A stretch of 22,105 bases of DNA, taken from a virus. The stretch is taken from positions 17,995 through 40,099 of IMG/VR virus record IMGVR_UViG_3300029448_000109. One strand, given 5' to 3'. Positions 3,115-18,367 of this stretch are shown here, piece by piece. The position numbers and the translations under genes are program-made. The notes under the pieces are model-generated. The model did no database searches. It had not been told where the DNA came from and saw only the letters and a program-made list of their open reading frames with translations. Each line of letters opens with the position of its first letter. Position 1 is the stretch's first letter.

Positions 3115-4401
3115 TTATACGTCATTTGTCAACAACCTATTCATCAATACTACAAAGGCTTTTGTTGCTACTTGTGGTACTACTCCGTTCCCAAGAAGTC
3201 TAAGTCTGTCCACCCTACTGTCAATCCCATTAGTTGTTCTACCCAACTTGGGTTTAACACGAGGCTCTTCCCATTCGTGTTGTTGTTCGTTTGGTCTTGC
3301 GACTGATTGTACATCCCATGGACTTGTTCTCCCATATTGTGTTTCCCTCTGTCTGTCATCGCTGCTCGACTGTCTTGTTCCTTCGGTGTTCCCCAATTCT
3401 GAAGCTGTCCTTTTCTCGCTAACGCACTCAAACATTTCGATGCCTGACTGTTTCCTTTCATTCTGTACTTCTCGGCTTCTGTCGCTGATGGTGTCGGAAA
3501 GTTGTGAACTACTCTCGGTAGAGTTAGATACTTGTCTTTCGGTGTCATTGTTGGTGTGTCTTTCCAATCCCTTGCCATTGGTGTCGGAAATGTTTCTACT
3601 GCATCCCTTAACTTTGCTCCGAATGTCTGATTGCTCTTGTGACGTTTGCTCTTGAATGTTCCATCTTCCACTATCGTCTTTATTCGACCTCCCTCTGCAT
3701 CCGATGTTCTCGGTGTCGGATAATTCTTCGCATCCTTGTATGCTTGAACTGATTTTGGATGTACTTGTTCTCTTAGATTCGATGGACCTGTTCTGCCTTT
3801 CCTTGTTGTTGTTGCTTGCTTCACTGATGCTTCGTAACTTCTCGTTGGTAACATATCCATTGTGTTTGGAGTAGCCCATGATGAAGACTCTTTTTCTCTG
3901 ATGTGGGAAGCCGACTTCACTCGCTGAGAATACTCCTGCCGTTGCTTGATAACCCAATCTTTCCAAGTCTTTAAGCACATAGTGGAGAACAGATTCTCCT
4001 TCTGCTGTTTTACTTGAGATAATCCCTTCAACATTTTCGAGGAAAACAATTCCTGGTTTACACTCTTCGATTCCTCTACTGAAGTGTGGGTATAAATGTC
4101 TAGAATCTTCAACTCCTTTTCTAGCTCCAGCTTGGCTGAAGGGTTGACAAGGGAAGCCTCCTGATAAGATGTCCACTCTTCCACAAAACTCTTTGTATGG
4201 GAAGGTCTTAACATCCGTGTAGACAGGTGCTGCATCCAACTGTTCGCTTTCCATCTTCGACACCAAGTTTTCGATTGCGAAGGCTTCGATCTCCACATAA
4301 GCGATTGCTCGCAAGTTTGGTAAAACTCGTTCAAGTCCGATTCCGATTCCGTCATAACCTGCACAGAGCGATAGGTGTGTAATTGCTTTGGTATTATCCA
4401 C
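3115..4401 (-). CDS. C5-cytosine DNA methyltransferase (Dcm type)
   Basis: The product has 428 residues and starts with GTG at 4401, seven bases after GGGAGGA (4407-4413). Motif I is LSLCAGYDGIGIGLE (10-24), motif IV with the catalytic cysteine is PCQPFSQAG (84-92), motif VI is ENVEG (122-126), motif VIII is QRKRVFIMG (168-176), and the final conserved segment is RVDRLRLLGNGVVPQ (396-410). It would transfer a methyl group from S-adenosylmethionine to cytosine; no restriction partner is visible, so host-defence evasion or self-marking is likely. Residues 180-370, where target recognition should lie, are polar and repetitive with recurring LSDT/ISDT/LGNT units. The same DNA is open in the +1 frame. 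One 60-base block (3541-3600) has 27 G+C against 17 in a helicase block, so it may be acquired or doubly constrained. Confidence 0.9.
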   Translation of the reverse strand: MDNTKAITHLSLCAGYDGIGIGLERVLPNLRAIAYVEIEAFAIENLVSKMESEQLDAAPVYTDVKTFPYKEFCGRVDILSGGFPCQPFSQAGARKGVEDSRHLYPHFSRGIEECKPGIVFLENVEGIISSKTAEGESVLHYVLKDLERLGYQATAGVFSASEVGFPHQRKRVFIMGYSKHNGYVTNEKLRSISEASNNNKERQNRSIESKRTSTSKISSSIQGCEELSDTENIGCRGRSNKDDSGRWNIQEQTSQEQSDIRSKVKGCSRNISDTNGKGLERHTNNDTERQVSNSTESSSQLSDTISDRSREVQNERKQSGIEMFECVSEKRTASELGNTEGTRQSSSDDRQRETQYGRTSPWDVQSVARPNEQQHEWEEPRVKPKLGRTTNGIDSRVDRLRLLGNGVVPQVATKAFVVLMNRLLTNDV

Positions 4402-4403
4402 AT
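3180..4403 (-). CDS. Overlapping +1-frame protein inside the methyltransferase gene (407 aa)
   Basis: The frame is open from ATG at 4403 to TAG at 3180. The ATG forms TAATG with the helicase stop and uses the same GGGAGGA as the methyltransferase, two bases earlier. The N-terminal half (about 170 residues) is charged and holds no motif I know. From there the protein repeats W/Y/F/N-x-T-P units: WATPNTMD, YPTPRTSD, FPTPMARDW, FPTPSATEAE and WGTPKEQD, most preceded by an L-x-x-x-V-type helix end. It finishes NPSWVEQLMGLTVGWTDL then DFLGTE. Repeats of this type and this ending recall proteins I remember next to phage cytosine methyltransferases; I could not check this. Function unknown. Plus-strand frames here are also unusually open, so a chance open frame is not excluded. 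Confidence 0.5.
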   Translation of the reverse strand: MWIIPKQLHTYRSVQVMTESESDLNEFYQTCEQSLMWRSKPSQSKTWCRRWKANSWMQHLSTRMLRPSHTKSFVEEWTSYQEASLVNPSAKLELEKELKILDIYTHTSVEESKSVNQELFSSKMLKGLSQVKQQKENLFSTMCLKTWKDWVIKQRQEYSQRVKSASHIREKESSSWATPNTMDMLPTRSYEASVKQATTTRKGRTGPSNLREQVHPKSVQAYKDAKNYPTPRTSDAEGGRIKTIVEDGTFKSKRHKSNQTFGAKLRDAVETFPTPMARDWKDTPTMTPKDKYLTLPRVVHNFPTPSATEAEKYRMKGNSQASKCLSALARKGQLQNWGTPKEQDSRAAMTDRGKHNMGEQVHGMYNQSQDQTNNNTNGKSLVLNPSWVEQLMGLTVGWTDLDFLGTE

Positions 4404-5680
4404 TAGTCCTCCCAATTTAAGTGTTTATATGTTTGATGTTCTTTAATAAAATCTAAACTAGCAATAGGTGATTCACCATTTCTATTTTTTTGCCAACGTG
4501 CTACAACATGAGTTCCTTGTATATCATATCTAGGCATGATAGTTTTATTTTGTATTCTTATTCCTTCTTCAGGAACAGTATATAATAATATAATTTGATC
4601 TGCTAAGTTCTCTACATCTTTAGACCAAGACACTCGTAAAGTTTCTTCATTAGGATGACATAATAAAAATAATGGTACTTTAGTTATGTTTCTTAAATCT
4701 AAAAGATTACGAATAAAATCATCATACATAATAGTCTTAGATTGATACTGTTTACCTCCGTCAGAGATTGTTAATAAGTTGTCAATAAAAAATGCATCAG
4801 CCTTATCTCGCCACTCTCTAATGCAATATCCTTTAATATCTGATATGTTCATAGATTTATCACGAATAACTAATTCAAGTTCTTTTAAACCTTTCATAGC
4901 TTCTCTTGCTCTATTTGATTCATCAGTAGTACAACCTGATGGTCTTGTTTTCATCATAAGAGTATTTAGTTGACCATACACAGCAATATATCTAGGAAGT
5001 AATTCTTCTTTTAACATTTCTATACTACAAAATGGTACTCTTTGTTTATTCTTGTGGGCATGAATCATATGTTGAATTGCAAAGGCAGTTTTACCTGTTG
5101 ATCGTGGTGCAGATATAAGAATTAAATCTTGTTTTACTTTACCTAATCTGTTTGTCCATTCGTCAAAGGGCCAAGCAAAATGCCCAGTATTATTTGTTTC
5201 ACAATCTTGTATAAATTTCTCGCCTAGATCATCAAAGGATAATTCTTTCTCTTCCTCTTCAGATGTGCCTATTAAACGCCCTACAATCGATTCTGAAGCA
5301 CTTTCTCCATTATAACAAGAACGTATACCATCTGAGTATATATCTATCTCAGAACGCAATATATATTTTTCTCTAATTATTGCTGCATAATGATTAGAAT
5401 GGTTAGGTATGATTTCACCTTCTTGTAATTCTAATAAATATTCTGCTCCACCAATTTTTTTAAGCATATCTTTATCGTTTAAATAATTAAATATAGTAAC
5501 AGCATCCATAGTAAGTAATTGCTGTTTCATTTCTTTTAATGTTTTAAATAATGTTTGATGTTTAGTTTCATAAAACCAATCAGATTCTAAATATGAGTTC
5601 TTATCTAATCTAGTAGAATCCAATAATACTGAACCTAAAAAACCTCTCTCTGCTTCATCACTATGTGGTGTATCGTTCAT
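4403..5680 (-). CDS. Replicative DNA helicase, DnaB type
   Basis: The chosen start is the ATG at 5680 (425 residues). It overlaps the upstream TGA as ATGA with GAGGA before it. A start at 5725 would overlap the upstream gene by 49 bases. The N-terminal domain begins PHSDEAERGFLGSVLLD (residues 5-21), typical of DnaB. Walker A is SAPRSTGKTA (about 190-199), Walker B is DAFFIDN (about 295-301), and near the end VARWQKNRNGESP matches the DNA-binding and arginine-finger region usually written VAKNRNGPTG. It would form the hexamer that unwinds the fork. The histidine in FLLCHPNEE fits motif H3. It is slightly shorter than bacterial DnaB (about 470 residues). No primase domain is fused. Confidence 0.9.
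   Translation of the reverse strand: MNDTPHSDEAERGFLGSVLLDSTRLDKNSYLESDWFYETKHQTLFKTLKEMKQQLLTMDAVTIFNYLNDKDMLKKIGGAEYLLELQEGEIIPNHSNHYAAIIREKYILRSEIDIYSDGIRSCYNGESASESIVGRLIGTSEEEEKELSFDDLGEKFIQDCETNNTGHFAWPFDEWTNRLGKVKQDLILISAPRSTGKTAFAIQHMIHAHKNKQRVPFCSIEMLKEELLPRYIAVYGQLNTLMMKTRPSGCTTDESNRAREAMKGLKELELVIRDKSMNISDIKGYCIREWRDKADAFFIDNLLTISDGGKQYQSKTIMYDDFIRNLLDLRNITKVPLFLLCHPNEETLRVSWSKDVENLADQIILLYTVPEEGIRIQNKTIMPRYDIQGTHVVARWQKNRNGESPIASLDFIKEHQTYKHLNWED
4407..4413 (-). promoter_or_regulatory. One Shine-Dalgarno serving two starts in different frames
   Basis: The minus strand reads GGGAGGA, then CTA, then ATG, then TG. The ATG (4403) opens the +1-frame protein and the overlapping GTG (4401) opens the methyltransferase. 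The helicase stop TAA (4405-4403) shares its last A with the ATG. Ribosomes ending the helicase could restart in either frame. Confidence 0.7.
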
Positions 5681-17380: not shown

Positions 17381-18367
17381 ATGGCATTTACAAAAGTAGA
17401 TATATGCAACTTAGCATTAAGTAAGATTGGTAACGAAAGAAACCAACTTACTAATCCTGATTTTACTTCAAACTCTGGAGTAATTTTCGATCAATGTAAT
17501 TTACAATATACACAAACTTTACACCAACTAGTAAGATTACACTCCTGGGGTTGTTGTAAAGCAAGAAAACAATTATCTAATCCTATTTTAACAGTTACAG
17601 AAGGAGATAATATTATTGATTTAACTTTATCTCCTACAGACGATGTTACTACAGTTAATAGTGAAAGAAGAGTAAATAGATATACAGCAACAGATAGAAC
17701 TTTAAGTTATGACGGAACAAAATTTGTATATCCTTTAACTGTTTTTTTTGCAAGAAATGATGATGATATATGTCAAGATGCTGAACTTAATTTAGATTCT
17801 AGTAGTGAAGTTTTTTCTTCTGCAGCTACAACAAGTATTGAACCACCTAAAACTACTTATACAGGCCCTACTTCTGTATTAGAATTTTCAAGCATTACTG
17901 TATCTGAAAAAAAACCTATTTTTGAATACGATCATATTTATCAAATACCAAGTGATTGTGTAAGAGCTTTATATTTAACAAATGAAAAAGATTCATATAA
18001 TTTTTTAAAACCTAAAGTTGATTGGATAAGAGAAGGTAATACTATTTTAACTAACCATGAAAAAATTTATTTATGTTATGAAGCAGAACCTTTACCTGAA
18101 AACATGGATTCTTTATTTAGAGAAGCGTTTACAACATTATTAGCTCATAATTTAACTATGTCTGTAACAGGTGATAAAGAGTTATCCATATTGTTATTAG
18201 AAAAATTTAATACTGTAATTATGCCTGAAGCAAGAAGAATAAATGGATTTGAAGAAAGTAAAATGCCTACTATAGATAGTGAGTGGTTAGAATCTGCATA
18301 CATATCTGACGCATCATATAATAATTCAAATCCTCCGTTTTCCTCTTCTTCTTATGGTACATTTTAA
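17381..18367 (+). CDS. Tail tubular protein A (T7 gp11-type adaptor)
   Basis: The product has 328 residues. The N-terminus, MAFTKVDICNLALSKIGNER, is the hallmark of the family (V-D-I-C-N-x-A-L-x-x-I-G), followed by RLHSWGCCKARKQL. Residues 230-280 match the helical end of gp11. T7 gp11 is about 196 residues; the extra length lies in the middle, roughly residues 75-190, which contains a serine- and threonine-rich strand region. It forms the ring between portal and nozzle. No Shine-Dalgarno precedes the ATG: the bases before it are the terminator T-run and TATATATT, so translation must use another signal or be weak. Confidence 0.85.
   Translation: MAFTKVDICNLALSKIGNERNQLTNPDFTSNSGVIFDQCNLQYTQTLHQLVRLHSWGCCKARKQLSNPILTVTEGDNIIDLTLSPTDDVTTVNSERRVNRYTATDRTLSYDGTKFVYPLTVFFARNDDDICQDAELNLDSSSEVFSSAATTSIEPPKTTYTGPTSVLEFSSITVSEKKPIFEYDHIYQIPSDCVRALYLTNEKDSYNFLKPKVDWIREGNTILTNHEKIYLCYEAEPLPENMDSLFREAFTTLLAHNLTMSVTGDKELSILLLEKFNTVIMPEARRINGFEESKMPTIDSEWLESAYISDASYNNSNPPFSSSSYGTF

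Follow-up and report, generated by a model that had tools for sequence, protein, structure and literature searches.

Introduction

Can one stretch of phage DNA encode two proteins of nearly equal length that belong to a single enzyme? The question is raised by a methyltransferase gene in IMG/VR virus record IMGVR_UViG_3300029448_000109, of which positions 17,995 to 40,099 were analysed; this stretch of 22,105 nucleotides is referred to here as the window. An earlier note, made from the letters of the DNA alone, had described a C5-cytosine methyltransferase frame (frame A) and a second frame, shifted by +1 on the same strand, that is also open across most of it (frame B), and had supposed that the product of the latter could be a partner or specificity subunit of the enzyme. 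Our answer is that one dual-coded phage gene very probably encodes both subunits of a heterodimeric C5-cytosine methyltransferase, its expression and activity being inferred. What sequence comparison establishes is that the motifs of the two frames are complementary, that single-chain and two-gene relatives exist, that the starts overlap and that both frames are under selection.

Layout of the overlapping frames

Both frames lie on the minus strand (Table 1). Read from a TTG, the +1 open reading frame extends from 4415 to 3180, with its stop codon at 3182-3180. The open frame that had been noted is real, and its extent is refined in one respect, namely its conserved start, the ATG at 4403-4401, which overlaps the GTG of the methyltransferase; counted from this ATG, frame B has the 407 codons previously claimed for it and covers about 95% of frame A, the dual-coded length being about 1.2 kb.

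In the ATGTG overlap, the ATG of frame B and the GTG of frame A have one G in common, and in several relatives without ATGTG the ATG of frame A lies seven bases 5' of that of frame B. The upstream DnaB gene ends in TAATG, its TAA overlapping the ATGTG start region. A clear Shine-Dalgarno sequence was missing in some relatives when the start sites of 72 were inspected. That both frames initiate behind one ribosome binding site is an inference from this arrangement.

Table 1. Features of the dual-coded methyltransferase gene, in positions of the window.
Feature	Positions	Strand	Basis
Frame A, putative catalytic subunit, C5-cytosine methyltransferase	3115..4401	minus	428 aa, GTG start; PF00145 4e-39, phrog_363 1e-57, AlphaFold core resembling M.HhaI
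Frame B (+1 to A), putative recognition subunit, cassettes and motif IX	3180..4403	minus	407 aa, ATG start; phrog_1008 6e-19, open in all relatives, four-fold-site test
GGGAGG, Shine-Dalgarno-like, could serve both starts	4408..4413	minus	sequence; purine-rich site in most relatives
Overlapping starts ATGTG (B ATG 4403-4401, A GTG 4401-4399)	4399..4403	minus	kept in 62/72 relatives
Frame A motif I (CAGYDGIGIG)	4336..4365	minus	sequence
Frame A motif IV (GGFPCQPFS, catalytic Cys)	4135..4161	minus	sequence; aligned to M.HhaI
Frame A motif VI (FLENVEG)	4024..4044	minus	sequence
Frame A motif VIII (PHQRKRVF)	3883..3906	minus	sequence
Frame A motif X (RVDRLRLLGNGVVPQVA)	3166..3216	minus	sequence; confident helix in AlphaFold model
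Frame B conserved helix WKDWVIKQRQEYSQRVK, overlapping the catalytic core	3915..3965	minus	invariant or near-invariant columns; confident helix
Frame B cassette 1 (WATPNTMD...)	3723..3878	minus	sequence
Frame B cassette 2 (YPTPRTSD...)	3591..3722	minus	sequence
Frame B cassette 3 (FPTPMARD...)	3501..3590	minus	sequence
Frame B cassette 4 (FPTPSATE...)	3396..3500	minus	sequence
Frame B cassette 5 (WGTPKEQD...)	3258..3395	minus	sequence
Frame B motif IX (LNPSWVEQLMGLTVGWTDL)	3201..3257	minus	L-N-P...L-M-G invariant across distant relatives; spacing as in single-chain methyltransferase

Motifs and predicted structures

Frame A matches PF00145 and TIGR00675 (1e-34) and contains motifs I, IV, VI and VIII in order, with the catalytic PCQ, just as had been reported for the methyltransferase frame. 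Its motif content amounts to I-VIII plus X, and motif inspection of the 428-residue product found motif IX to be absent. In the AlphaFold model of frame A, residues about 1-180 (the core) and the motif X helix are confident, residues 208-362, at the position expected for the small domain, are of low confidence, and a Foldseek search with this model returned a match to M.HhaI. Frame A is thus predicted to be disordered at the expected small-domain position, with a linker joining the core to motif X.

The C-terminal order of frame B is that of [WFY]xTP cassettes followed by 'LNPxWVEQLMGL', which is motif IX. Five (Y/F/N)-(P/G)-T-P units and a segment running from NPSWVEQLMG to GWTDLDFLGTE had been pointed out previously, and the WP/FP/YP-TP units and this segment were located in frame B as claimed. 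The spacing of motif IX in frame B, L-x-P-x5-L-x-G-[FYL], is the same in LTPKECWRLQGFP from the ordinary single-chain methyltransferase of Streptococcus phage IPP62, a gene that has 16 stops in its +1 frame. Profile searches of the PDB with frame B and with the motif IX segment gave no usable or significant match, and a Foldseek search of the frame B model against the PDB gave none, so that the identity of motif IX rests on its spacing, its position and the single-chain relatives.

The AlphaFold model of frame B alone is poor (pTM 0.25); in it a helix at 144-172 is confident, and the part near the first cassettes is of moderate confidence. A poor model may reflect a domain that needs its partner, but taken alone it does not count as evidence. 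No function is known for the N-terminal 170 residues of frame B, which lie over the catalytic core.

By position, the cassettes occupy the target-recognition region, and recognition of DNA by them is inferred. Each of 66 window-type genes has 0-6 cassettes, in 43 distinct orders altogether; typing by single-linkage clustering over-merges the largest group, leaving the count of true cassette types uncertain. That each cassette would recognize one target, by analogy with the multispecific enzymes of Bacillus phages (PMC8936443), is a hypothesis. One relative (L016 2986-3834) represents a natural loss of most cassettes, with one left and both frames still open. In addition, a segment containing HWFRRDKAGFS is common to a frame B cassette of L018 (residues 210-282) and to L101 1925-3067, the DNA methyltransferase of Staphylococcus phage Alsa_2, which from its TSPPYF motif looks to be of the N4/N6 type; this shared segment suggests that the module may be mobile between methyltransferase types.

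Relatives and architectures

Scanning viral contigs, first with the protein of frame B and later with its alignment, yielded 451 relatives, 80 of which were fetched. A search of phage proteins with the +1 protein alone, which had been proposed as a check, gave a match to phage family phrog_1008 (Table 1), a family also matched by the C-terminal half of gp76 of Mycobacterium phage Rita (2e-61), by gp53 of Gordonia phage Upyo (6e-57) and by frame B of Lacticaseibacillus phage R9.1 (3e-36). Rita gp76 is a single chain made up of the core, cassettes of the LLPTP kind, motif IX and motif X; in Upyo, gp54 is the core, and the separate, adjacent gene for gp53 carries cassettes, motif IX and motif X; and in the dual-coded form, motifs I-VIII and X are found in A, the cassettes and motif IX in B. 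Each motif is present once in every architecture, and these three architectures settle the identity of frame B. The supposition of a partner or specificity subunit was right in substance, as far as can be judged from sequence, in that B has the motif IX that A lacks, placed after cassettes that stand in the recognition-domain position of single-chain relatives.

Rita gp76 also bears on an alternative in which programmed +1 frameshifting fuses the core of A to the cassettes and motif IX of B in one chain, as it is such a fusion in one frame; moreover, the shift of A relative to B is identical in all homologs. However, the fusion would be without motif X, which is located in frame A past the end of B, and for this reason we consider frameshifting improbable. 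It would also not account for the conserved ATG that B has of its own at the shared start, and a single shift leaves unexplained why A stays open through the cassettes and B through the core.

It is very unlikely that frame B is an unrelated overprinted protein, for example an inhibitor or anti-restriction factor, instead of a subunit. Such a protein would be compatible with the poor predicted folding of B alone, with its long N-terminal part of no known function and with the lack of a solved-structure match, but B provides exactly the motif missing from A, and the corresponding region is part of the enzyme in the single-chain relative and a separate gene beside the catalytic one in Upyo.

The division of one methyltransferase between two overlapping frames is typical of a large family and not peculiar to the phage of the window, and dual coding likewise appears to occur in hundreds of related genes of phages and bacteria. 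Among 80 viral loci chosen by the catalytic core only, motif IX was found in the +1 frame within A in 64 and in A itself in none, the remainder being mostly loci without a motif-pattern match or incomplete. Examination via frame B covered 86 loci, 80 of them from bacterial genome assemblies; dual coding was seen in 80 of the 86. Clostridia and other Bacillota, Bacteroidetes, Proteobacteria and Acidobacteria are the groups that appear in the record titles. Among phages that have been cultured or deposited, the arrangement is present in R9.1, SalP219, C72C1, C75C1, Paenibacillus phages HB10c2 and Bloom, and Acinetobacter phage ABMM1. The frequency per genome is low, with matches in 4 of 299 genomes of one phylum sample, including the genome on which the sample was centred.

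Some individual loci vary in layout. Frame A is shortened in L010 (2952-4542) and L085 (2464-3057), and in L010 frame B extends far enough to include motif X as well as motif IX, resembling a halfway stage to a pair of separate genes. In L209, frame B continues about 690 nt past the end of frame A, giving an unusually long open frame of 602 aa.

The deposited gene is frame B, not frame A, in Acidovorax phage Alfacinha3 (L268 1496-2662), Synechococcus phage Ssp-JY39 (L273 1469-2584) and Komagataeibacter phage phiKX1 (L102 2651-3259). In the record of Paenibacillus phage Bloom, both overlapping CDSs are annotated as methyltransferases, and the overlap as such has therefore already been annotated. 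A literature search, in which subscription journals were poorly covered, found a precedent for split enzymes and no family-level account of the overlap.

Open frames and selection

Synonymous codons of the window's methyltransferase gene were resampled in 2000 draws and the +1 stops were counted. The expected number is 9.3 +/- 2.7 with the codon usage of the methyltransferase family and 25.9 +/- 3.4 with that of the other window genes, and in neither case did any of the 2000 draws give zero; the sole stop in the tested +1 stretch is frame B's own terminator. Stops number 37-102 in the +1 frames of the window's remaining long genes. Homologous loci, which the earlier note had proposed to check for stops, agree: in 70 distinct relatives, counted to 110 nt before the gene end, frame B has no stops versus 557 +/- 16 expected from the codon usage of those genes. 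The +2 frame of full-length relatives has 10-49 stops. The dual open frames are real, far beyond chance. A caveat raised at the outset, that low stop density contributes, is not the explanation, since resampling, the other genes and the relatives are all against it. The resampling rules out that the frame is open through base composition or stop avoidance.

Constraint was assessed at four-fold sites in 33 disjoint pairs of relatives. Frame A variability at these sites was 0.189 for the core, 0.178 for the cassettes, 0.134 for motif IX and 0.551 after the frame B stop, and it was 0.458 for neighbouring single-coded genes; in 15-nt bins, values of 0.03-0.06 over motif IX give way to 0.57 just past the stop of B. 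Synonymous change in the enzyme frame, a reduction of which had been named as a further check, is lower by a factor of about three or more within the overlap. In the cassettes and motif IX, the four-fold sites of frame B itself vary more (about 0.32) than those of frame A, which makes B the main constrained frame there. When the test was repeated with 38 pairs of remote relatives, most of them bacterial, it gave 0.53 before B opens, and 0.18 and 0.14 within the overlap. A permutation test that holds codon pairs fixed gave a positive average for the core (mean z 2.8) and a weak signal elsewhere; it was too conservative, and the four-fold-site test was used instead.

Third-position divergence is far greater in the window's neighbours (DnaB, about 0.5 per codon) than in the methyltransferase core (0.09 for the window against L006), a contrast to which horizontal transfer of the methyltransferase could add. 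Both frames are kept in relatives, as had been supposed, and the aligned relatives demonstrate protein-level selection on both. The idea that frame B is a chance product of base composition or codon usage, for which the plus-strand frames that are also open here and the reduced stop expectation under the family's own codon usage might be cited, can be dismissed in view of the stop-free relatives, the abrupt change in synonymous variability at the stop of B, and the existence of a single-coded gene and a single-chain enzyme that are homologous to B.

Comparison with known systems

The nearest known case is M.EcoHK31I (YGGCCR), whose small polypeptide (beta, about 176 aa) is read from a different frame within the large gene, both polypeptides being needed for activity. 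Likewise, frame B of the window lies inside the frame A gene in another frame. The large polypeptide of M.EcoHK31I has motifs I-VIII and X, with motif IX on the separate small polypeptide (PMC3404938), a likeness that concerns motif content and not a sequence alignment. There are also differences. The recognition domain of M.EcoHK31I has been placed on the large subunit (PMC3404938), whereas the recognition region of the window appears to lie in B, which in addition is 407 aa long, starts together with A at ATGTG, covers 95% of it and has several cassettes.

M.AquI is naturally split between motifs VIII and IX, its catalytic motifs being on a different subunit from IX (PMC3404938), and it resembles the window in this alpha/beta division; Upyo gp54/gp53 also resembles M.AquI. 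However, the beta subunit of M.AquI has motifs IX and X and a distal recognition region, whereas in the window motif X belongs to A, and almost the whole of A is overlapped by B. The methylases of Rita (gp76) and related actinophages share a homologous core and cassette-IX region (phrog_363, phrog_1008), but have motifs I-X all in one frame of one protein.

The multispecific C5 methyltransferases of Bacillus phages (SPR, phi3T, H2) are single-chain, single-frame enzymes. In the window, the putative modules sit in a second frame and their targets are unknown. The Bacillus phage enzymes carry several recognition modules in tandem (PMC8936443); the cassettes of the window would be comparable if they do recognize DNA, which is inferred from their position. 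Compared with known systems, the unusual features are the overlap of about 95%, the overlapping starts, cassettes whose rearrangement affects both frames simultaneously and the wide spread of the family.

Proposed function and implications

In the arrangement that we propose, frame A would give the catalytic domain (motifs I-VIII), a disordered linker and motif X, and frame B, which is one base out of register with A and begins two bases before it behind the same Shine-Dalgarno-like sequence, would give the small domain, made up of target-recognition cassettes and then motif IX. Made side by side, the two proteins would form one heterodimeric enzyme with motifs I-X once each, which may methylate the phage genome and thereby allow escape from host restriction. 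Translation of both frames, heterodimer assembly, enzyme activity, the part of the cassettes in DNA recognition and the role against restriction are inferred.

A more extended reading, on which we find the arguments evenly balanced, combines several propositions: the cassettes are independent recognition modules; methylation specificity is changed by recombining units that have to remain open and functional in two frames; in the group of the window, B was extended over the whole catalytic domain and acquired another functional domain in that part; and the ratio of the subunits is fixed by their shared ribosome binding site at the ATGTG overlap.

This locus provides an unusually clear case of a long, same-strand, dual-coded gene in DNA phages, with single-coded edges that serve as internal controls. 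Dual coding explains why depositors have annotated sometimes A and sometimes B, and by implication many phage and bacterial proteins now labelled as entire cytosine methyltransferases make up only half of one, and recoding the codons of the annotated frame for cloning would abolish the second half unnoticed. Because single-chain, two-gene and dual-coded forms all survive, the family offers a tractable system for the evolution of two proteins in one sequence.
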